A stretch of DNA of 39,944 bases from assembly GCA_025358085.1 (NCBI GenBank), contig JANYKT010000184.1, forward strand, positions 1 to 39,944, read 5' to 3'. Below are positions 27,123 through 39,944 of the stretch, piece by piece (within the stretch, counting starts at the first letter, position 1; each line of letters begins with the position of its first letter). The notes below the pieces were generated by a model. It was given only the letters and a program-made list of their open reading frames with translations. It made no database searches and was not told the origin of the DNA. Source of the stretch: Deltaproteobacteria bacterium (GTDB taxonomy: Bacteria; Myxococcota; Myxococcia; Myxococcales; 40CM-4-68-19). The position numbers were made by a program, and so were the translations under genes.

Positions 27123-27635
27123 ATGAAGGTGCTCCCCGACCGGAGCATACTGCTGGTGGACGACGACGAGAGCGTCCGCGAATCGCTCGAGAGCCTGTTA
27201 AGCAAGGACGGCTACCGGATCACCACCGCCGAGAGCGGCGAGGATGGTCTTGCGGCGCTGCGCGACACGCCGGGGATCCAGCTGGTCATCAGCGACCACA
27301 ACATGCCGGGCATGTCCGGCGTCGAGTTCCTCAAGCTGGTCCGTTCCCGCTATCCCGCTGTGATGCGCGTCATGCTCACCGCCGACTCCGACCCCGAGAC
27401 GGTGGTGCGCTCCATCAATGAGGGGGAGGTGTACCGCTTCATCCGCAAGCCGTGGGACAACGCCAACCTGCGCGAGTTGGTCTACTTCGCATTCGAGACC
27501 CTTCTGCTCGAGGACGAGAAGCGCCGCTTGCTCGAGGTGGTGCGCCGGCAGCGCGACGCGTTCCGCCAGCTGGACTTGTCGGCTGATCCCGAAGCCGAAT
27601 TGCTCCTCGCCGAAGCCGACCTTCTCCGGGACTGA
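27123..27635 (+). CDS. Single-domain response regulator with C-terminal coiled coil
   Basis: Protein of 170 residues. A complete receiver domain covers residues 7-125: acidic pair in LLVDDDESV, phosphorylated Asp58 in LVISDHNMPGMSG, switch Thr86 in VMLTADSD and Lys109 in FIRKPWDN. The FIRKPWDNANL end is typical of RpfG-like regulators, but no HD-GYP output follows: the C-terminus is a helix (LLEDEKRRLLEVVRRQRDAF) and an acidic tail. It likely acts through protein contact. A good ribosome site (GGAGGTG) precedes ATG 27123. The PilT-type ATPase gene begins one base after its stop, so it may control pilus retraction; this is inference. No histidine kinase is adjacent. Confidence 0.88.
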   Translation: MKVLPDRSILLVDDDESVRESLESLLSKDGYRITTAESGEDGLAALRDTPGIQLVISDHNMPGMSGVEFLKLVRSRYPAVMRVMLTADSDPETVVRSINEGEVYRFIRKPWDNANLRELVYFAFETLLLEDEKRRLLEVVRRQRDAFRQLDLSADPEAELLLAEADLLRD

Positions 27636-27636
27636 C

Positions 27637-29184
27637 ATGGCCCGGCTCGACGCATTCATAGCCTTGCTCTTCAAGGAGGCAGCCACTGCGCTGGTGCTCG
27701 AAAGCGGCTCGGTGGCGCTGCTCGAGGGCGGGCCGCAGCCGAAGGCCATCATGAAGCGGCCGTTGACCACCTCGCACATCATTGCCGCCGTCAGCGAGTT
27801 ACTGCCCCCCTACGAAGCGCTCACTTTCAACGGAACCGATCCGCGCGAGCTGAGCTACGAGTCTTCCTCCGGCCGCGTCTCGGTGCGGTTCGCACCCATC
27901 GCAGGGGGCGTGCGCGCGACGCTGCGGCCCGACGCGCAGAAGCGCGAGCTTCTGGACGCGCCCAAGGTGCAGGCAGCCTTTCACGCGGTCGCCGTGCCCC
28001 GGCCTTCGGCGGTGAAGCCGGTGGCGGCCACGGTGGAAAAAAAGCGCGGCATCGACGTGCCTGCAGCGCCGGAAGATCCCGCGGCCGCCATGAAAATGCT
28101 GCTCGATCTCGTGGTCGAGAAGGGGGCCTCCGACCTGCACCTGACCTCGAACTTCACGCCCTGCTTGCGCGTGGACGGCGACATCGCTCCGCTCGAGGGC
28201 TTCGGCGTCCCCACGCACGAGCGGCTCCAGCAGATGCTCTGGTCCATCACTCCGGAATTGAACCGCGAGCAGTGGGTCGCCATCAAGGACAGCGACTTCG
28301 CGCACTGGACGGAAAGCGCGCGCTTCCGGGTCAACCTCTTCACCGACAAGTCCGGCATCGCTGCGACCCTGCGCCAGATCCCGAACACCATCCTCAGCGC
28401 CGAACAGATGGGACTCTCGAAGCAGATCCTCGATCTCGCGTTTTTGCCCAAGGGTCTGGTGCTGGTGACCGGGCCGACCGGCTCGGGGAAGTCCACCACG
28501 CTCGCGGCCATCATCGATTATATCAATCGCAATCGGGACGATCATATCATTACAATTGAGGATCCTATCGAGTTCGTGCACCCGCACAAGCGCTGCCTGG
28601 TGCACCAGCGCGAGGTCTTGACCCACACCAGTTCGTTCAAGCACGCTCTCCGGGCCGCGCTGCGCGAGGACCCCGACATCGTGCTGGTGGGCGAGATGCG
28701 GGACCTGGAGACCATCGGTATTGCGCTGGAGACGGCCGAGACAGGCCATCTGGTCTTTGGCACTCTGCACACCAACACCGCGCCGTCGACCGTTGACCGC
28801 ATCATCGATCAATTTCCCGCTGACCGGCAGTCGCAGGTGCGGACCATGCTGTCCGAGTCGCTCAAGGCAGTGATCACCCAGGTGCTTTGCAAGAAGATCG
28901 GCGGCGGACGCGTCCCGGCGCACGAAATCCTCGTCGGCACCAGCGCGGTAGCGAACCTCATCCGCGAGGGCAAGACCTTCCAGCTGGCGTCGGCCATGCA
29001 GACCGGTCGCAACGTCGGCATGCAGACCATGAACGACGCGCTCCTTGACCTGGTGAAGCGCAAGCTCGTGCTGCCGAAGGAGGCGCTGTCAAAGTCGGTA
29101 GCAAAGGTTGAGTTGCAGAAGCAGCTCGAGGCCATCCAGGTGGTGGTCGAGGAAGCCGCCGAGGAAGGCACCTTCGGTATCTGA
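27637..29184 (+). CDS. PilT/PilU-type retraction ATPase with extra N-terminal domain
   Basis: Protein of 515 residues; PilT is usually about 345-370. Residues 152-515 are a PilT-family secretion ATPase: KGASDLHLTSNFTPCLRVDG (N-domain), Walker A GPTGSGKS (279-286), ITIEDPIEFVH (Asp box), Walker B region EDPDIVLVGEMRD and the His box TGHLVFGTLHTN. Residues 1-100 (ALVLESGSVALLEGG, RPLTTSHIIAAVSELLP, GRVSVRFAPIAGGVRATLRP) look like a diverged second copy of the PAS-like N-domain, joined by a Pro/Ala linker. PilT-type motors power type IV pilus retraction at the inner-membrane pilus base. The neighbours are not pilus structural genes. The acidic C-terminus resembles PilU more than PilT. ATG 27637 follows the regulator stop at once. 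Confidence 0.88.
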   Translation: MARLDAFIALLFKEAATALVLESGSVALLEGGPQPKAIMKRPLTTSHIIAAVSELLPPYEALTFNGTDPRELSYESSSGRVSVRFAPIAGGVRATLRPDAQKRELLDAPKVQAAFHAVAVPRPSAVKPVAATVEKKRGIDVPAAPEDPAAAMKMLLDLVVEKGASDLHLTSNFTPCLRVDGDIAPLEGFGVPTHERLQQMLWSITPELNREQWVAIKDSDFAHWTESARFRVNLFTDKSGIAATLRQIPNTILSAEQMGLSKQILDLAFLPKGLVLVTGPTGSGKSTTLAAIIDYINRNRDDHIITIEDPIEFVHPHKRCLVHQREVLTHTSSFKHALRAALREDPDIVLVGEMRDLETIGIALETAETGHLVFGTLHTNTAPSTVDRIIDQFPADRQSQVRTMLSESLKAVITQVLCKKIGGGRVPAHEILVGTSAVANLIREGKTFQLASAMQTGRNVGMQTMNDALLDLVKRKLVLPKEALSKSVAKVELQKQLEAIQVVVEEAAEEGTFGI

Positions 29185-31241: not shown

Positions 31242-32582
31242 ATGGCGAAGATAGGCGAGCTTCTGATTGCGGAGGGTCACCTCACGCAGGACGGGCTCGA
31301 GGAAGCACTCGACTGGCAGGTGCTTTACGGCGGCCGGCTGGGGACCAATCTCCTCGAATTGCAGCTGGTGGAGGAGCGGGACCTGGCGCGTGCGCTGGGC
31401 CGGCAACTGGGCGCGGAGGTGACCTGGGGCGAGCTGCAGCCTGATGCGGCGCTGTTGGGCGCCCTCCCGCCGCACTTCGCCGAACGCCAGGAGATCATCC
31501 CCTGGAAGCTGGAGAAGCGCAGGCTCAAGGTGCTCTGCATCGAGATCAAGCTGCAGCAGCTCGACGAGCTCGGGTACAAGCTGGGCCGCACCTGCCAGGC
31601 GGTGATCGCCCCCGAGTATCGCGTCCACCAAGCCCTGCGCGCGCTTTACCAGGCAAAGCGACAGATGCGGGCGCTCGACTTTGGCTTGGTGCCCGAGGAG
31701 GGGCGAGAGGAGCGCCGGCGGTCGAAGCGCAAGCAGGAGAAGGGCGCGCCGGAGGAAGCAGCGCCGGAACTCATCGATGAGAGCGCCTTTGATGACATCT
31801 ACAACCAGGTGCTGGCGGGGCGATCGGCAGCCGTGGCGCAGGCGCCGCTTGCAGCTTCACTGCCGCCGGTTCACGCCCCCGCAACGCTGCGCGGGCACCC
31901 AGCCAATCCGCAGCCCGCGACGCTGGAACCGCTGCCGGACAACGCCATTCTCGAAGCTCTCCCCGACGACGCCATCCTCGAGGAAGCGACGCTGGAACCC
32001 GACCCGGCGGAGGTTGAAGAGGCGCTCCCGGAAGTCAGCTGGGATGATGTACCCAGAGAAGCGGAGCCACCTTCCATCGACGAATCGCCGCTCGACTTCA
32101 AACAGGCACTCAAGCTGCTCGAAGGCGTGTCTGACCGCGACTCGATCGCGCACATCGTCTTGCGGGCCTCGCGCGGAATGGCCGCCCGCGCGCTGCTGCT
32201 CCAGGTTCAGGGCGGCATGGCGCTGGGCTGGGACGGCCTGGGCGAGGGGCTGTCGGGGGGCGCAGCGCGCGCCGTGGCCATCCCGCTATCGGCAAAGTCG
32301 GCCTTCTCGCTGGTGGTGAAGACGCGGAGCCATTACCTGGGCCCACTGCAGAAGACGCCGTCGAACATTCGCTTCCTCGCCGCGTTGGGGAAGAAGGTCC
32401 CGCTCTCGTCGCTGCTGGTGCCCATCCTGCATCGGGGCCGCGTCTCGCATTTGCTCTACCTCGACAACGGCCATCGCCAACAAGCGCCCACCGACGTGGG
32501 CGAGATGCTCATCCTCAGCCAGCGCATTGGCCAGACGGTGGACGCGCTGGTCGCGCGCAAGCACAAGGCCGCGCGCGGATGA
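31242..32582 (+). CDS. MshEN-domain protein with C-terminal GAF-like region
   Basis: Protein of 446 residues. The N-terminal ~140 residues match the MshEN/GspE N-domain: KIGELLIAEGHLTQDGLEEALDW, then LGTNLLELQLVEERDLARAL and an ALPPHFAERQEIIPWKLE segment. In some secretion ATPases this domain binds cyclic di-GMP through its paired Leu-rich motifs. No ATPase domain follows. Residues ~145-280 are a charged, low-complexity linker with repeats of LPD-x-AILE. Residues ~285-446 (KQALKLLEGVSDRDSIAHIV, ARALLLQVQGG, SLLVPILHRGRVSHLLYLDN) look like a GAF-type sensor. A cytoplasmic sensor or adaptor is likely. Its stop overlaps the next start (ATGATG, 32579). Confidence 0.75.
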   Translation: MAKIGELLIAEGHLTQDGLEEALDWQVLYGGRLGTNLLELQLVEERDLARALGRQLGAEVTWGELQPDAALLGALPPHFAERQEIIPWKLEKRRLKVLCIEIKLQQLDELGYKLGRTCQAVIAPEYRVHQALRALYQAKRQMRALDFGLVPEEGREERRRSKRKQEKGAPEEAAPELIDESAFDDIYNQVLAGRSAAVAQAPLAASLPPVHAPATLRGHPANPQPATLEPLPDNAILEALPDDAILEEATLEPDPAEVEEALPEVSWDDVPREAEPPSIDESPLDFKQALKLLEGVSDRDSIAHIVLRASRGMAARALLLQVQGGMALGWDGLGEGLSGGAARAVAIPLSAKSAFSLVVKTRSHYLGPLQKTPSNIRFLAALGKKVPLSSLLVPILHRGRVSHLLYLDNGHRQQAPTDVGEMLILSQRIGQTVDALVARKHKAARG

Positions 32583-33784
32583 TGGGGAGGCGAGCGCTCT
32601 TTGCGCCCTGCGGCATCCGGCCCGTTGCGGCCGCCCTGATTCTCGCAGCCCTCGCGAGTGCGTGCGCCGGAGACCTGGTCTCTCCGTTCGCGGCGGTGGC
32701 GGTCACCTCCGACGCGAGCAAGCACCAGTACAAGCTGGCGCAGGTTCAGGTGACCACTTTGACGGGCAGCCTGCGGCACTTGCAGGGCTCGGCGGGCACC
32801 GTGCGCGCAGGCGGAACGGTGCGCGTTGTCGAGGCCGCGGTCACGCGGAAGGGCTCGACCGTGGATGCGCTGCGCACGCAATTCTTCACCGCGCAGCCGC
32901 AGCAAGTGAACCTCGCCTGGAGCGTGCTCAACGACATCGTCTATCCGGAGGACTTTGCTTCGCTCGAGCTTCTGAGCGGCTATTACAACCTGGAAAAGGC
33001 GCGCGGAGTCTTCCGCGATTTCGGCCTGACCGCGCTGCCGGCGATGCCAATCGTCGCGCACGCCAGCGTCCTCGACGACAGCGGGCTGAACCCTGTCGCC
33101 TCGGGTGAACTTTACTATCCGCCGCTCGCGACTTTTTTCTTTCCGGTCCCCTCATCGACCGACGTGCAGCTCCCGCTCGTCTTCAATCCGGGCGCGATGG
33201 CCCACGCGCTGGGGCACGAGGCAATTGCGCAGCTGGTCTGGGGCGGCGCGCCCGTGGCCGGACCCGAGACCGGGCCGGCGAACGACCCGGCGTGGAACAG
33301 CGCGCGCCATGTCGCCCGATCGATGACGGAAGGACTCGCTGACTACCTGGGCGTGGCCGCCACCGGCGACCCGCGCTGGTTCGACCACTCCGAGCAGCAG
33401 CGGGCAGCGCAGAGCGCGCTCGATGTCCTCCGTTGCGGAACGCCTGACATGTTGCAGGCGCTGCCGGTGGATGATGCGGTCGCACCCTACGTTCCATTTC
33501 CGCTCGGCACGGTGCTCGCGGGGGCGCTCTGGGAAGCGTCGCAGGCCAGCGGCGTCCAGACCATCGCCACGGGCGTGCTACTGGCGCTGCCGGACATCGG
33601 CGCGCGCGTCGCCGGGGACGAAAGCCAGCTGAACGTCGCGCTGGTGCTGGACGCGCTCGTCAAGACGGCAGCCCCCGAACAAAGGAACGAACTCTGCGGC
33701 TTGTTCCTCAATCGCTTCGCCAGGCTTTCGGTGACGAGCCTGCCGTCGTGCAGCGCGCCTGTGCCGCACCAGGAATGCCAGTGA
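32579..33784 (+). CDS. Lipoprotein with degenerate metallopeptidase-like domain
   Basis: Protein of 401 residues. MMGRRALFAPCGIRPVAAAL and the following ILAALASAC form a lipoprotein-type signal. Around residues 209-213 (HALGH, bases 33203-33217) and 246-255 (ARSMTEGLADY) the sequence has the layout of a gluzincin peptidase (HExxH, then E-x-x-x-D), but the catalytic Glu of HExxH is Ala. If the alignment is right the protein keeps a metal site and lacks peptidase activity. The rest is not recognised. Clean frame, codon use as neighbours; overlaps the genes on both sides (ATGA before, GTGA after). Confidence 0.65.
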   Translation: MMGRRALFAPCGIRPVAAALILAALASACAGDLVSPFAAVAVTSDASKHQYKLAQVQVTTLTGSLRHLQGSAGTVRAGGTVRVVEAAVTRKGSTVDALRTQFFTAQPQQVNLAWSVLNDIVYPEDFASLELLSGYYNLEKARGVFRDFGLTALPAMPIVAHASVLDDSGLNPVASGELYYPPLATFFFPVPSSTDVQLPLVFNPGAMAHALGHEAIAQLVWGGAPVAGPETGPANDPAWNSARHVARSMTEGLADYLGVAATGDPRWFDHSEQQRAAQSALDVLRCGTPDMLQALPVDDAVAPYVPFPLGTVLAGALWEASQASGVQTIATGVLLALPDIGARVAGDESQLNVALVLDALVKTAAPEQRNELCGLFLNRFARLSVTSLPSCSAPVPHQECQ

Positions 33785-34695
33785 AGCGCCTGGCCATCGC
33801 GCTCTGTCTGTGCGCGCCAGTGCTGCTCGCGCAGCAGGAGCCGACGCCGTTCTGGCTGCCGCCTCCGCCGGTGAAAGCGGGGCCGCCGGAGCAGAAGGAC
33901 GCGTTGCCGCCCGTGAAGAAGGCCGCGCCGCTGGTGAAAAGGAAGGCCGCGCCACCGCCGAACTATCGCGCGCCGCCAACATCCCGGGAGCCCGCGAGTG
34001 TCCGCGAGCCTGCGATTGTTCGGGAGCCCGCGCCGCCGCATGAAACGGCCGGAACGCCTGCGCCCGATTTGACACCGCGCCCCGCGCACCCGCCGCGCAA
34101 AAGTGCGGCTGAGCGCGAAGGTCACGCCCTGATCGCCGGTGAAACTCCCGGTGCACTGGTTGCCGAGCCGCCAGCTCCCGAGCCCGTGTCGGAAGAGCCG
34201 CGTTGGACCCCGCAGCGCTTCAGCGTCGGCCTTGCCTTCGGCCTCTGGGGCAGCTCGCCCATCGATGGCAGCGACCGCGGCTACGATGCCGCCTACGGGC
34301 TACGCATCGGCTACGAACTCCTGGCCGACCGGGTCGAGTTGGAACTGCTCGCGCTGCGGGCCAGCCGGACCGCTGGTTCTGCCTTCGCAAACGCCAGCAC
34401 CGCGCACAACCTCTTCTCGCTGCGAGCGTTGTATTTGATCAGCGCGGGCCGCTTCACGGCGCTCCTCGGCGGCGGCCTCGGCGCTGCGCTTTCGCAAACG
34501 CATTACTCCGTGCAGGACGTCGGCGGCACCCCGGTCGGCTTCGATGCCACTTCGGGTCGCCTTGTGCTCCAGGTCACAGCCGGAGAGCGCGCGCGCCTCT
34601 ATCGTGGCCTCGACGTTCGCGCCGAAGTCTCGGCATTGTTGCGCGACGGCAAGCTCGACGTGCTGCCGCTGCTCGCTTTGGGCTGGGCATTCTGA
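33781..34695 (+). CDS. Predicted outer-membrane beta-barrel protein with Pro-rich N-terminal region
   Basis: Protein of 304 residues from GTG 33781 (AGGA six bases upstream; overlaps the preceding stop). MKRLAIALCLCAPVLLAQQ is a signal peptide. Residues ~20-140 are Pro/Lys/Glu-rich with repeats of REPA (REPASVREPAIVREPAPP), likely periplasm-spanning or peptidoglycan-facing. Residues ~145-304 alternate polar and non-polar residues (FSVGLAFGLWGSS, YGLRIGYELLADRVELELLALRAS, FTALLGGGLGAALS) and end in an aromatic residue (LLALGWAF), the usual barrel end. Not a named family. Probably the outer-membrane part of this gene group. Confidence 0.7.
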   Translation: MKRLAIALCLCAPVLLAQQEPTPFWLPPPPVKAGPPEQKDALPPVKKAAPLVKRKAAPPPNYRAPPTSREPASVREPAIVREPAPPHETAGTPAPDLTPRPAHPPRKSAAEREGHALIAGETPGALVAEPPAPEPVSEEPRWTPQRFSVGLAFGLWGSSPIDGSDRGYDAAYGLRIGYELLADRVELELLALRASRTAGSAFANASTAHNLFSLRALYLISAGRFTALLGGGLGAALSQTHYSVQDVGGTPVGFDATSGRLVLQVTAGERARLYRGLDVRAEVSALLRDGKLDVLPLLALGWAF

Positions 34696-34783
34696 AGTAG
34701 CGGTGCTTTTCGGGGTTTGCGATACTTGAGCTGTCACAAAGACGCTGTGGGTCGCGCTTCTCTTGCGCGATGGGAGGTTCAAA

Positions 34784-36412
34784 GTGCTGTTGAAGCGCCT
34801 CGCTCTCTGCGCTGCATTGTCCGTCGTTCCGCGCCTCGCGCTCGCCGATACCGGCAAGGGTGAGCTCGACTGGGGACGCCGCGTGCTCGTCGGCCACGGC
34901 CAGGGCGCCCCCGACCTGAACGCCCCATCCATCGCCGTGGCGCGGCTCGGCGCCGAGCGCGCCGCGAAGCTCGATGCCTTCCGCAACGCGCTCGAGACAC
35001 TGAAAGGCGCGGAGGTTGAAAGTGGCGGCAGCGTCGGCACGCTGCTGCAGAACGACAAGACGCTGCGCTCCAGGGTCGAAGGCAAGCTCAAGGGCGTGCA
35101 GGCGATCAAGACACATTACTTCTCGGACGGCGGGGTCTCGCTCGACATCGAGGTGCCGCTCGATCAGCTCCCGGCCGATCTGGCGAAGAACCTGAAGGTG
35201 CCGGCTGGCTCGGCGCCGTTGCAGGGGACGAGCGAGGCGGGCGCGAAGGGACAGGCGAGCGTAGCGCTCGGCGGCGACGTGGTGACGCAAACCGCCCAGG
35301 GACAAGCGGCGGTGCTCAGCGGCGACAAGCCGCAGGCGCGCGAGAAGGCCATCGAGGACGCGCTCCGCCATGCCGTCGAGATGGCGGTGGGCACCAAGGT
35401 GACCAGCACCACCGAAACCCAGGATTTCCAGACGAAAATGGATCAGGTGATGAGCCACTCGACCGGCTTCGTGAAGAAGTACGATATCGTCAACGAAGGC
35501 ATGGACGGCGACGTGGTGCAGGTGACCGTCAAGGCCTATATCTCGACGGTCGAACTCGACAAGGACCTGGAGGCCATGGGTCTCCTGATGGCGCGCAAGA
35601 ACATGCCGCGGACCATGGTGCTGATCGCCGAGCAGAATGTCGGGATGGTCGCGCCGGCCGCGGCCTGGATGAAGAGCCCCAAGGACATGCCGACGGCAAT
35701 TTCCGCGGATCTGCGCATCGCCGAGAACGTCATGCTGGACCAGCTCAAGAACAGTGGCTTCAGGCAGCTGGTCGATCCCGAGATCGCGGAAGAGAAGGCG
35801 GTCTCGATCGGCGGCATCAGCACCGACATCACCGCCGCGCAGGCCCGCAAGCTGGGCTCGCTCACGCACGCCGAGGTCATCATCATCGGACGAGTGATCG
35901 CGACCTCGCGCGGTGACGCGCCGGAAGAGTTGGGCAAAGGGTGGCGCACCTGCTCGGCCATCCTCACCGGCCGCGCGGTCAACACCGACAACGGCGACAT
36001 CCTCTCCACCAGCGAGACCTCCCAGAACGCCATGCAGCTGGACGACCTGAACTGCGGCAAGGAGGCCATCAAAAAGGCCGCCAAGGCGTTCACCCAGGAC
36101 ATGGTCAAGAAGATCGGCGAGCGCTGGAGCAAGGACGTCTCGGGCGGCAACGAGGTGCACGTCACCGTCAAGAAGGTCACCTCGTTCAAACAGGCTTCCG
36201 AGTTCCGCGCCGCCCTGACGCAGTTCATCCGCGGCGTCAAGGGCGTCGCGCAGCGCAGCTTCAGCTCCGGCACGCAGGAGCTTGACGTGACGCTGACGGG
36301 CTCGACCGACCAGTTCGCCGAAGAGCTGGAGTCGAAGAAGCTGGGCAAGTTTTCGGTCAAGGTGACCGGCACCACCGCCAACACCGTCGACGTGGAGCTG
36401 GGGCAACAGTGA
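34784..36412 (+). CDS. Secreted FlgT/LPP20-like protein
   Basis: Protein of 542 residues from GTG 34784 (GGGAGG six bases before). LLKRLALCAALSVVPRLALA is a signal peptide cleaved at A-L-A. Residues ~30-140 contain an LPP20-like unit (ARLGAERAAKLDAFRNALET). Near residues 180-260, REKAIEDALRHAVEMAVGTKV, then SHSTGFVKKYDIVNEGMDGD and VVQVTVKAYIST, match the FlgT N-terminal domain. Next comes RTMVLIAEQNVG and a TolB-like alpha/beta region (ADLRIAENVMLDQLKNSGFR, HAEVIIIGRVIATS). FlgT belongs to the flagellar H-ring in Vibrio, but no flagellar gene is nearby, so an envelope role of another kind is likely. Overlaps the next gene (GTGA). Confidence 0.75.
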   Translation: MLLKRLALCAALSVVPRLALADTGKGELDWGRRVLVGHGQGAPDLNAPSIAVARLGAERAAKLDAFRNALETLKGAEVESGGSVGTLLQNDKTLRSRVEGKLKGVQAIKTHYFSDGGVSLDIEVPLDQLPADLAKNLKVPAGSAPLQGTSEAGAKGQASVALGGDVVTQTAQGQAAVLSGDKPQAREKAIEDALRHAVEMAVGTKVTSTTETQDFQTKMDQVMSHSTGFVKKYDIVNEGMDGDVVQVTVKAYISTVELDKDLEAMGLLMARKNMPRTMVLIAEQNVGMVAPAAAWMKSPKDMPTAISADLRIAENVMLDQLKNSGFRQLVDPEIAEEKAVSIGGISTDITAAQARKLGSLTHAEVIIIGRVIATSRGDAPEELGKGWRTCSAILTGRAVNTDNGDILSTSETSQNAMQLDDLNCGKEAIKKAAKAFTQDMVKKIGERWSKDVSGGNEVHVTVKKVTSFKQASEFRAALTQFIRGVKGVAQRSFSSGTQELDVTLTGSTDQFAEELESKKLGKFSVKVTGTTANTVDVELGQQ

Positions 36413-36687
36413 GGCTGCTGCTGCTTCTCGCGTCCGGCTGCGCGGCCGCTAGCCCAGCGATGGCGCGGGTCGCGTTGCGCGGGGCCGATCCGAAAGCAGA
36501 ACTCACCATCGACGGCGCGCCCGCTGGCTTCATCGCCGACTACAATCACAGCCGGCTGCGTCTTCCCGCCGGCCACCATGTCTTTACCCTGCGTTCAGCG
36601 CAGGGCGGGGTGGCGGTGCGCGAGGCCGACGTCGGGCCCGGCGACGACATCGCGCTCGACTTCAATCCAGCTGGGGGTCTCCGATGA
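36409..36687 (+). CDS. Small secreted PEGA-like protein
   Basis: Protein of 92 residues from GTG 36409, overlapping the preceding stop. RLLLLLASGCAAASPAMA is a signal peptide, either cleaved after A-M-A or lipidated at the Cys (lipobox is imperfect). The mature part has the PEGA-type strand pattern: AELTIDGAPAGFIADYNHSR, then LRLPAGHHVFTLR. PEGA domains are small beta-sandwiches common in envelope proteins of myxobacteria. Its ATGA end overlaps the FecR-domain gene. Confidence 0.65.
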   Translation: MRLLLLLASGCAAASPAMARVALRGADPKAELTIDGAPAGFIADYNHSRLRLPAGHHVFTLRSAQGGVAVREADVGPGDDIALDFNPAGGLR

Positions 36688-37388
36688 AGAAGTTTTCGCT
36701 CGGCGCAGGTGCGCTGTTCGCGTGCGCGCTGTTCGTTCAGCGAGTCTCGGCCGAGGCCCGGCCAGCGCAAGTCTCGGCCCTCGAGGGCAAGGCGGAGCGG
36801 TCGCGCAAAGGTGGGCAGCCCGCCAGGCTGGCCGTCGGCGCCACCGTCTCGCAGGGAGACTTCATCACCACCTTTGCCGGCGCGCGGCTGGAGCTGAAGT
36901 TCGCCGACGCGTCGCTGCTGCGCATCGGGCCCGGCGCAAAGCTGCAAATCAGCGCGGCGCATTTCGGGGGAGGCCCGGCCAAACGGCAGATGACCGCGCG
37001 GCTTTTTTTCGGCAACCTCTGGGCGAAAGTCACGACCGCCATCCAAGGCGAGCAGAAGTTCCAGATCGAGACCGAGAACGCGGTGGCCGGCGTGCGCGGC
37101 ACCACTTTCCGCGTCGATGCGCGCCAGGACAAAAGCGTGCTGGTGCGGGTCTATGCTGGCGCAGTTGCTGTCGCGAAGAACGTGCCGATCTACGGCACCC
37201 CCGCCAGCGGCAAGCCAGGGGAACGGCACGAAGTCGACGGCCCCGACGAAGTTTCGCGCGACAAATGGGAGAAAATCGTCGGCAAGCAGATGCAGATCCT
37301 CATCGCCGCGGACGGCACGCCGGGCGAGGCAACCAGGCTCGCCGACACGGACGAGAAGGCCGACGATCTGGGCATCTGGAAGCCCTGA
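36684..37388 (+). CDS. Secreted FecR-domain protein
   Basis: Protein of 234 residues. MKKFSLGAGALFACALFVQR and the following VSAEA form a signal peptide. The FecR domain is clear: ARLAVGATVSQGDFITTFAG, ARLELKFADASLLRIGPGAKL, LFFGNLWAKVT, FQIETENAVAGVRGTTFRVD and VLVRVYAGAVAV. FecR domains occur in iron-sensing anti-sigma proteins, but stand-alone secreted copies without a transmembrane segment or sigma factor are common in deltaproteobacteria and have no proven role. Here no sigma factor is present. The stop is followed after three bases by the phosphatidyltransferase. Confidence 0.85.
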   Translation: MKKFSLGAGALFACALFVQRVSAEARPAQVSALEGKAERSRKGGQPARLAVGATVSQGDFITTFAGARLELKFADASLLRIGPGAKLQISAAHFGGGPAKRQMTARLFFGNLWAKVTTAIQGEQKFQIETENAVAGVRGTTFRVDARQDKSVLVRVYAGAVAVAKNVPIYGTPASGKPGERHEVDGPDEVSRDKWEKIVGKQMQILIAADGTPGEATRLADTDEKADDLGIWKP

Positions 37389-37391
37389 TTT

Positions 37392-37940
37392 GTGATCATC
37401 AACGTCCCAAACTTTCTCACCGGGCTGCGCATCCTCGCCATCCCGGTCTTCATCGCGCTCTTCCTGCAGGGCCGCTTCGGGGCGTCCCTCGCCGTCTTCG
37501 TGGGCGCCCAGGTGACCGACGTCCTCGACGGCATCGCGGCGCGGGCGCTCCACCAGTTCACGCGCCTTGGCGCCATCCTCGATCCGCTCGCGGACAAGGC
37601 GATGGGCTCGGCGGCGCTGGTCCTGTTGTGCTGGTCGCACCGGCTGCCGTACTGGCTGTTGTGGCTGGTGCTGGTCCGCGAGGTTTGCATCTTCACCGCC
37701 ATCGGCCTCCTCGATCGCACGGGTCGCAGCTATGAGATCCGGCCCACGCGCTTCGGGAAGTACTCGACCTTCTTCCTGGCCGCGACCACCTTTGTCGCGC
37801 TGGTGCTGCACGCGCGCGAGATCGGGCACTCTCCGGCGTTGATCGCGCTGACGCTCGTCGCGGCCGAGTGCGTGGTGGTCTCCTGGGGCCAGTACCTCTG
37901 GATCTGGATTGGCTTGATGCGACAGCCGCGGACTGCCTAG
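37392..37940 (+). CDS. CDP-alcohol phosphatidyltransferase
   Basis: Protein of 182 residues, an integral inner-membrane enzyme. The family signature is exact: D43-x2-D-G-x2-A-R51-x8-G60-x3-D64-x3-D68 (read from DVLDGIAARA and GAILDPLADKA). The start IINVPNFLTGLRILAIPVFI is like that of PgsA, and at least four membrane segments follow. PgsA makes phosphatidylglycerol phosphate from CDP-diacylglycerol and glycerol 3-phosphate; this assignment is likely but other alcohols cannot be excluded. GTG 37392 is the start that gives the family N-terminus. It ends the envelope gene run. Confidence 0.85.
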   Translation: MIINVPNFLTGLRILAIPVFIALFLQGRFGASLAVFVGAQVTDVLDGIAARALHQFTRLGAILDPLADKAMGSAALVLLCWSHRLPYWLLWLVLVREVCIFTAIGLLDRTGRSYEIRPTRFGKYSTFFLAATTFVALVLHAREIGHSPALIALTLVAAECVVVSWGQYLWIWIGLMRQPRTA

Positions 37941-38022: not shown

Positions 38023-38097
38023 TGGTGCGAGCGACAGGGATCGAACCTGTGACCACTGCCGTGTCAAGGCAGTGCTCTACCGCTGAGCTACGCTCGC
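38023..38097 (-). tRNA. tRNA-Val (anticodon GAC), CCA encoded
   Basis: On the minus strand the sequence folds into a standard cloverleaf: acceptor GCGAGCG/CGCTCGC, D arm GCTC...GAGC, anticodon stem CTGCC/GGCAG with loop TTGACAC (anticodon GAC, valine GTC/GTT codons), T arm ACAGG-TTCGATC-CCTGT, discriminator A and genomic CCA. Length is 75 with CCA. It is divergent from thrS. No integrase or att duplication is seen next to it. Confidence 0.97.
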
Positions 38098-38207: not shown

Positions 38208-39944
38208 ATGTCCGAGATATTGACCCTCACGCTTCCTGACGGCACCGCAAAGCAGGTGGAGCGCGGGACCACCATCGCTGATTTCGTCAAGACCCAGATC
38301 GGCGCAGGCCTGGCCAAGGCCGCGCTCTTCGCCAGGCTCGACGAGCAGGAGCTCGACCTCTCCCGGCCACTGGAGCGAGGCGGCAAGCTGCAGATCTTCA
38401 CCAGCAAGTCGCCGCAGGGCCTGGACCTCATTCGCCACGACGCTGCGCACCTGCTGGCGAGCGCGGTCCAGCGGCTGTTTCCGGGGACGCAGGTCACCAT
38501 CGGTCCGTCGACGGAGGAGGGCTTCTATTACGATTTCTATCGCGAGAAGCCCTTCACGCCCGAAGACCTCGAAGCAATCGAGAAAGAGGCCAATGAGGAG
38601 GTCCGCAAGAACCAGCCCTTTGTCCGCCAGGAAGTCACCAAAGACGAGGCCCTCGCGCTCTTTGGCAGGCTGGGCGAGAAGTTCAAGCTCGAGATCATCG
38701 AGGATATCTTCAATAAGGGCGCGAAGACTTTAACCCTCTACAGCCACGGCGACTGGACCGACTTCTGCCTGGGGCCGCACTCACCCTCCACGGGGCGCAT
38801 CGGCGTCATCAAGCTTTTGAGTGTGGCGGGGGCCTATTGGCGCGGAGACCATCGCAATGCGCAATTGCAGCGCGTCTATGGCACCGCTTTCTTCGACAAG
38901 AAGGATCTCGACGCCTGGCTCAAGCAGCAGGAAGAAGCAAAGAAGCGCGACCACCGCAAGCTGGGCAAGGAGCTCGACCTCTTCTATTTCCACCACTTTG
39001 CCCCGGGGGCCGTGTTCTGGGCGCCGAAGGGGACGGTGCTGATGAATGTGCTGTCACAAGCCATCCGCAGGCTGTGCCTGGACAATGGTTATGTGGAGAT
39101 CAAGACGCCGCTGCTGTTCAACAAAGGCTTGTGGGAGATCAGCGGGCACTGGGGCAAGTACAAGGAAAACATGTTTTTGCTGCAGGACAGCGAGACGGGT
39201 GAGCACGACTTCTCGCTGAAGCCGATGAACTGCCCGTCGCACTATCTCCTGTACTCGTCAGGCAAGCATTCGTATCGCGAGCTCCCGATCCGCCTCAACA
39301 CCTTCGACATGCTGCACCGCAACGAGGTGTCGGGTGCGCTAGCGGGGCTGACGCGCGTGCGGCAGTTCCAGCAGGACGACTGCCACATCTTCATGATGGA
39401 GAGCCAGATCGCGGCCGAGGTGAAGCGGCATGCGGACTTCATCGTCGGGTTCTACAGCACGTTCGGGTTGAAGCCGGTGCTGAAGTTCGGCACGCGTCCG
39501 TCGGTGCGCATCGGCGACGATGCGATGTGGGATCGCGCCGAGGCGGGGCTCAAGAGCGCGCTCGAATCGCTGGACATGCCGTACACGATGAACGAGGGCG
39601 ACGGCGCGTTCTACGGGCCGAAGATCGACTTCCACGTGGCCGACTCGATCGGGCGTACGTGGCAGCTGGGCACGATCCAGCTCGACTACGCGGCACCGGA
39701 GCGGTTCAGCCTGATCTATGTCGGCGAGGACAATACCGAGCACCGCCCGGTGATCATCCACCGCGCGGTGTGCGGGTCGTTCGAGCGCTTCATGGGCATC
39801 CTGATCGAGCACTTCGCGGGCACGTTCCCGCTGTGGCTCGCGCCCGAGCAGGTGCGCGTGCTGCCGATCGCCGACGCGCAGAACGACGCTGCGCGCGTGC
39901 TGCACCAGAAGCTGCGCGACGCCGGCGTGCGGTCGCATCTCGAC
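38208..39944 (+). CDS. thrS: Threonyl-tRNA synthetase (C-terminus beyond the window)
   Basis: The frame runs open for 579 codons to the window edge; the usual total is about 640, so only the end of the anticodon-binding domain is missing. Domains in order: TGS ([20 protein letters not shown]), editing domain with the metal motif HDAAHLLA and [14 protein letters not shown] (the common version has C-x-G-PH), then the class II core with the zinc Cys in [12 protein letters not shown], motif 2 [13 protein letters not shown] carrying a zinc His, and [13 protein letters not shown] with the last zinc His and motif 3. The anticodon domain begins at [14 protein letters not shown] 38208 gives the normal TGS start. 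No T-box leader is seen in 38098-38207. Confidence 0.96.

Follow-up and report, generated by a model that had tools for sequence, protein, structure and literature searches.

A FlgP/FlgT-type envelope gene cluster with a FecR gene and neighbouring c-di-GMP receptor genes in Myxococcota

Flagellar motors are known to be reinforced by the add-on proteins FlgP and FlgT. What, then, do relatives of both proteins do when they are joined in one gene of a genome that has no gene for the flagellar P ring? The question is raised by seven plus-strand genes (S1 to S7, positions 31242–37940) in a 39,944-nucleotide stretch of DNA from a Deltaproteobacteria bacterium of the order Myxococcales (assembly GCA_025358085.1, contig JANYKT010000184.1, positions 1 to 39,944; hereafter the window). 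A preliminary description, made from the letters alone, had proposed that the products may form one assembly reaching from the cytoplasm to the outer membrane, and all seven genes it listed proved to be open frames without internal stops. Our tentative answer, which we regard as quite possible, is that the cluster encodes a non-flagellar envelope complex of the FlgP/FlgT (H-ring) type with a FecR-domain protein as partner and under the control of cyclic di-GMP (c-di-GMP), where the ring and the control are what we infer.

Linkage of FlgP-like, FlgT-like and FecR genes

The gene S4 (34784..36412, plus strand) encodes an LPP20/FlgP-like domain (approximately residues 25–140) fused to a FlgT-like protein (approximately residues 165–542). 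The FlgT_N domain scored 52.3 bits against a Pfam cut-off of 28.8 and was matched by all 18 members of the FlgT-like family, so the FlgT-like label of the preliminary description stands, while the N-terminal LPP20/FlgP-like domain of about 160 residues had been overlooked. The LPP20 domain of S4 misses its curated cut-off (17.8 against 25.9 bits), and 4 of 17 members match it at E ≤ 0.01. Compared with solved structures, the FlgT-like family profile matched FlgT (E 6e-4) and FlgO (E 0.007, positions 167–250), and the LPP20 profile matched FlgP of the flagellar LPHT-ring structure (8z5n_2, E 2.3e-5). An AlphaFold model of S4, built from five sequences, reached a predicted local distance difference test score (pLDDT) of 64 and a predicted template modelling score (pTM) of 0.35, and was therefore trusted for its domains alone. 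Foldseek of this model gave FlgT (3w1e, E 8.6e-11) as the best match, followed by the LPHT ring (8z5n), and CsgG at E 4.6e-6. By VIA-align, model residues 167–445 were superposed on 3w1e (Z 12.3, 233 aligned residues, root-mean-square deviation 7.5 Å) and residues 274–448 on 8z5n (Z 12.7, 155 aligned residues, 3.1 Å); since the VIA list mainly spans residues 273–453, the first domain was scarcely probed and other families are not excluded there. The middle, TolB-N-like domain that follows FlgT_N in FlgT is present in S4, as seen from VIA-align and the FlgO profile match. The Vibrio H ring includes FlgT, FlgO and FlgP (PMC6504787), and an SHS2-like fold is common to the FlgP family, FlgT and Lpp20 (PMC12222027).

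The LPP20/FlgP-like and FlgT-like parts are neighbours throughout the phylum and a single chain in the lineage of the window. Most relatives encode the two halves of S4, divided after residue ~160, in separate adjoining genes, about 265 and 395 codons long, of which the upstream one specifies the LPP20/FlgP-like domain plus a second conserved domain. Within family f1, the first gene has shrunk to about 150 codons in genome G024 and carries a tandem domain in G007, and one reading frame covers both halves in seven genomes (G000, G014, G019, G033, G036, G039 and G042); such a series from separate through reduced to fused is as expected if the FlgP-like and FlgT-like products act together. A 651-codon frame in G027 (L054:9077-11032) runs from an MshEN protein into the LPP20 domain, with a frame change in the MshEN C-terminus; FlgT and FecR are missing at this locus, and the frame probably reflects decay or an error in sequencing, not a true fusion.

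The distribution of these genes was surveyed in 179 Myxococcota genomes of at least 80% completeness, in which nine families (f1–f6 and f8–f10) belong to the order and class of the window and the remaining ones are referred to as outer families. The gene maps of the relatives came from a crude caller and were sparse or empty in several outer loci, where six-frame profile matches were used instead. Of these genomes, 94 have a FlgT-like gene, 140 LPP20 and 125 a FecR relative; 82 carry FlgT and FecR together at the locus (54 from the nine families and 28 from the outer ones). LPP20 was undetected in two of these 82, G008 and G030, and in G030 a contig end cuts the locus. The recurrent order is PilZ or MshEN, LPP20, FlgT, PEGA, FecR, optionally PgsA and AI-2E, and thrS, and the core sits upstream of thrS in many genomes. 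The adjacency of LPP20/FlgP-like, FlgT-like and FecR genes is far beyond chance, and this holds for the core only: the preliminary description would have taken scattered genes in relatives as a sign of accidental adjacency, and the core is syntenic phylum-wide, whereas in L041, L044, L046 and L063 both S2 and S3 are missing from the interval that separates MshEN from FlgT.

The FecR-domain partner, S6 (36684..37388), is an exported protein whose FecR domain, named already in the preliminary description, was confirmed (PF04773, 57.5 bits against a cut-off of 24). The anti-sigma N-terminus that precedes a membrane helix in FecR-type sigma regulators is absent: FecR begins at residue 61 after a signal-like stretch, and no other Pfam family matched. 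The FecR profile gave one weak match among solved structures, to an antifreeze protein. FlgT and this exported FecR protein have been gained and lost together. When 91 loci of f2, f3 and f4 were read at the DNA level with profiles, leaving out four that were cut by contig ends, the two genes agreed in 87 of 87 (both in 39, neither in 48). The PEGA gene, located between them, was kept in 47 of the 48 loci without both, so a single block deletion fails to explain the pattern, and the FlgT/FecR trait requires at least 9 changes on the LPP20+PilZ tree. One apparent case of FecR without FlgT, G093, was overturned on reading its DNA. In several f4 genomes (e.g. G052, G150 and G153) several FecR matches span one stop, perhaps where the profile extends past the gene's own end.

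c-di-GMP receptor genes upstream of the core

In several families the core is directly preceded by genes whose products have c-di-GMP receptor domains, namely PilZ, MshEN or both. The window has such a gene in S1 (31242..32582, 446 amino acids), which the preliminary description had called an MshEN/GAF-like sensor: its MshEN domain exceeds both the Pfam cut-off (PF05157, 46.8 against 23.1 bits) and that of the NCBIfam c-di-GMP_motif model (NF053729, 47.3 against 38), whereas GAF was matched by no Pfam or NCBIfam model, and the C-terminal half of S1 had no match in either collection. Two 24-residue motifs, 5 residues apart, agree with the strict consensus at 18 of 22 positions. An MshEN gene is adjacent to the core in f1, f2, f3, f14 and f29. 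A stand-alone PilZ gene occupies the upstream position in f2, f3, f4 and f10 (PF07238 over its cut-off in L056, L055 and L118), and the two types stand side by side in G001 (f2) and G002 (f3). The distance between PilZ and LPP20 was below 3 kb in 91 of the 92 f2, f3, f4 and f10 genomes having both, the exception being G155, in which each gene is at a contig edge; for f4 alone the count is 87 of 88. PilZ stays by LPP20 also after the loss of FlgT and FecR, as in 33 loci with the order PilZ-LPP20-PEGA-AI2E-ThrS. The c-di-GMP-binding candidates RxxxR and DxSxxG are both present in 86 of 89 locus PilZ proteins (two of the others have N for D and one is truncated).

Matches over cut-off number 10 for MshEN and 19 for PilZ in the window genome, and we estimate the chance of finding one of them beside a given gene at roughly 1 percent or less per neighbour, assuming about 5,000 genes. 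Because relatives have PilZ in the corresponding place, by itself or together with MshEN, the putative c-di-GMP link that had been suggested from the MshEN domain alone gains support, as judged from gene content and position. As a separate observation, guaA (GMP synthase) lies just upstream of the LPP20 gene in outer families (L098:10568-13605, L101:5978-7549, L109:10380-11927 and L120:5595-7148), accompanied in L098 by guaB (IMP dehydrogenase); genes of GTP supply beside a region that is elsewhere tied to c-di-GMP receptors are curious, and may be there by chance.

Other genes of the cluster and its surroundings

S2 (32579..33784, 401 amino acids) is a lipoprotein with a lipobox-like ASAC and matched no Pfam or NCBIfam family; its profile gave nothing meaningful against solved structures, and its AlphaFold model, from two sequences, was unusable (pLDDT 48). 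A likeness by eye to a degenerate gluzincin-type peptidase (HALGH, EGLADYLG) was dropped, as there is no intact HExxH and no search supported it; in L033 the motif's second His is not conserved. S3 (33775..34695) encodes a proline-rich exported protein with a beta-barrel-like domain; for the barrel proposed earlier, OMP_b-brl (PF13505) scored only below its cut-off (24.5 against 28.7). S2 is patchy, with homologues in part of f1 and in f10 (L118, profile E 4e-26), and S3 is limited to f1 among the 72 loci scanned. Both are present in the window, G033, G042 and G007, and S3 alone in G024, whose contig is cut. S5 (36409..36687) is a small PEGA-type lipoprotein with a lipobox-like ASGC. The window protein itself matched no Pfam or NCBIfam family, and its assignment to PEGA holds through an orthologue (L056:9803-10195), which scores 28.5 against a cut-off of 20.8 (PF08308).

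S7 (37392..37940) was correctly described as a phospholipid enzyme. It is a CDP-alcohol phosphatidyltransferase of the PgsA/cardiolipin-synthase type (PF01066, 109.6 bits), and the residues that we take to be the catalytic motif are intact. It scores 91.5 against the PgsA cut-off of 109.1 (TIGR00560) and is also under the ClsA cut-off, and the window genome has a separate pgsA at 142.5, over the curated cut-off, and a pssA; from these scores S7 is classed as an accessory paralogue. A gene of this type follows FecR in f1, f3, f5, f6, f12 and only part of f4, and is therefore an old yet dispensable neighbour.

The junctions within the cluster are less uniform than the overlaps of mostly 1–4 bases given earlier. 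Overlaps of 4 bases occur at three of the six (S1/S2, S4/S5 and S5/S6), S6 and S7 are separated by 3 bases, S2 and S3 overlap by 10 bases with an ATG start (37 with a GTG start), and S3 and S4 are 88 bases apart with the GTG start at 34784 (67 with a TTG start). Export of five products was judged by eye from the N-termini, together with the lipobox-like AC or GC of S2 and S5. Just downstream of S7 and convergent with it is a tRNA-Val(gac) gene (38023..38097, minus strand), and then thrS begins at 38208, as located with a ThrS profile made from relatives' genes labelled ThrS by eye. An Rfam scan of the window matched tRNA alone, and therefore no c-di-GMP riboswitch is present at the gathering threshold. 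Upstream of the cluster (27123–29184) are a response-regulator-like gene, labelled by eye, and after it a gene for an ATPase of the PilT/PilU family (TIGR01420, 436 bits); L044 has an upstream gene of the same similarity group as this ATPase. A pair of M16-type-peptidase-like genes, also labelled by eye, immediately precedes PilZ or LPP20 in L034, L038, L049, L128, L129 and L132, and such pairs occur in parts of f3, f4 and f5.

A non-flagellar ring and its alternatives

If the cluster encodes the proposed FlgP/FlgT-type complex, S4 would build a ring or disc beneath the outer membrane, with the SHS2-like and TolB-N/FlgO-like domains mediating its oligomerisation. FecR would be the obligate partner of the FlgT part and the PEGA lipoprotein would pair with the FlgP-like part, and the two could cap or anchor the ring. 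The cytoplasmic PilZ or MshEN protein would gate assembly or activity of the ring by c-di-GMP through an inner-membrane partner. AI-2E may be this partner where present; it was not seen at f1 loci, and in the window cluster no inner-membrane protein able to pass a signal outward was recognised except the lipid enzyme. S7 may tune the local lipid, and S2 and S3 might be lineage-specific outer-membrane parts in f1. A more far-reaching version appears rather unlikely to us at present, namely that Myxococcota own a dedicated machine at the outer membrane, a ring or disc that is non-flagellar and gated by c-di-GMP, made up of a PilZ or MshEN receptor, FlgP-like, FlgT-like and FecR proteins and a PEGA lipoprotein, in which the FlgT-FecR and the receptor-FlgP-PEGA parts are separately kept or lost.

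Several points weigh against the complex as proposed. The S4 model is of moderate quality, with domains visible but no ring. Well-supported branches of the tree give only 4 independent pairs, all concordant (p 0.125), so that the formal tree test of joint gain and loss is underpowered. The S1 motifs depart from the consensus at K3, I4 and H13 and by a Gln for Gly in motif II; even the relaxed motif given in PMC5013675 is violated once per motif, by a His where a hydrophobic residue is wanted and a Gln where Gly, Ala or Ser is wanted. The S1 orthologue is unlinked to the core in f4 and f6, the position directly before the core showed no c-di-GMP receptor in f5, f6, f8 and f9, and the window genome lacks an orthologue of the locus-type PilZ. 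Among the outer genomes 14 have both PilZ and LPP20, and in none of these are the two within 3 kb (four have them on a single contig, at a distance of 10 to 86 kb); nor are they in one f9 genome. Finally, all 24 Myxococcus xanthus PilZ deletions, including MXAN_3585, kept normal exopolysaccharide, and most PilZ mutants had no defect in motility or development, the exceptions being plpA, pixA, pixB and pkn1 (PMC8316039). If MXAN_3585 is the locus PilZ, its output would therefore lie elsewhere, e.g. in envelope integrity.

The strongest alternative is a general, constitutive complex for outer-membrane and peptidoglycan maintenance that is not controlled by c-di-GMP, in which the receptor genes are just long-lived neighbours within a conserved region by thrS. 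We consider this a serious possibility, if a somewhat doubtful one. It agrees with receptors not being adjacent in several families, with the position of the region by thrS-infC in many lineages among unrelated neighbours (the AI-2E transporter, and guaA/guaB in outer families), and with the Leptospira envelope lipoproteins LipL46 and LipL45 being the closest NCBIfam models to S4 and S6. However, two unrelated receptor types occupy the same position in related families, and the proximity of PilZ to LPP20 in f4 persists even where FlgT and FecR have been lost.

That the module is a flagellum part (H ring or basal disc), or a relic where the flagellum has been lost, is suggested by the FlgT/FlgP homology and by raw counts in the tree set, in which FlgT was kept in 13 of 14 flgI-positive and 26 of 73 flgI-negative genomes. 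The independent-pairs test on the tree, however, showed no such association. The P-ring gene flgI, present in 43 of the 179 genomes, is missing from the window genome (98% complete) and from 53 of the 82 genomes with FlgT and FecR (29 have it), and a flagellar function for S4 is thus not borne out; it is for this reason that S4 is called FlgT-like and not filed as FlgT. Moreover, eight flgI genomes have neither LPP20 nor the FlgT+FecR pair (G149, one of the eight, may have a cut locus, as its FecR relative is at a contig edge), and flgI and the module are on different contigs in the genomes compared. We therefore hold this explanation to be improbable. Pel export is controlled by c-di-GMP in other systems, and a CsgG/PelC-like outer-membrane channel for polymer export, proposed on account of the TolB-N/CsgG/PelC fold of the FlgT middle domain and in line with Foldseek and VIA matches of the S4 model to CsgG and PelC, is very improbable, since FlgT beats CsgG in Foldseek, Pfam CsgG is matched by only 1 of 18 members, and the neighbours scanned included no gene recognised as a synthase or polymerase.

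The proposed complex resembles known systems in part. In PMC6504787 and in the structures 3w1e and 8z5n, the Vibrio H ring of FlgT, FlgO and FlgP likewise combines FlgP-like SHS2 and FlgT-like (N-terminal plus TolB-N/FlgO-like) proteins in the envelope; the present cluster differs in the missing flgI of the window and most module genomes, the extra FecR and PEGA proteins, the PilZ/MshEN genes upstream, and the fusion in part of f1. With the Campylobacter FlgP basal disc, whose ring-forming hairpin insert the window protein may lack, it shares an SHS2-like fold family that polymerises into rings (PMC12222027), whereas the window genome is without flgI. LipL46 and LipL45, envelope proteins according to PMC5553009, come nearest among curated models to the C-terminal part of S4 and to S6, but the scores are far below cut-offs (62 bits for S6 against LipL45), and their tags (LIC_11885 and LIC_11643) are not those of neighbours. 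The locus PilZ proteins are like the stand-alone, ~110-residue M. xanthus PilZ proteins with c-di-GMP motifs in PMC8316039, and MXAN_3585 may be the LPP20 neighbour. Among MXAN_3584 to MXAN_3589, MXAN_3585 alone occurs in the literature searched, in one paper, and no description of the gene set was found there. Each domain by itself is already known.

Myxococcota have many c-di-GMP receptors, few outputs of which are known. Should the proposed complex exist, two families of c-di-GMP receptors would gain a concrete target in the envelope, which is testable by gene deletion. The occurrence of FlgP/FlgT relatives phylum-wide, mostly without the flagellar P-ring gene, would then imply a different envelope job for such rings, either today or at their origin.

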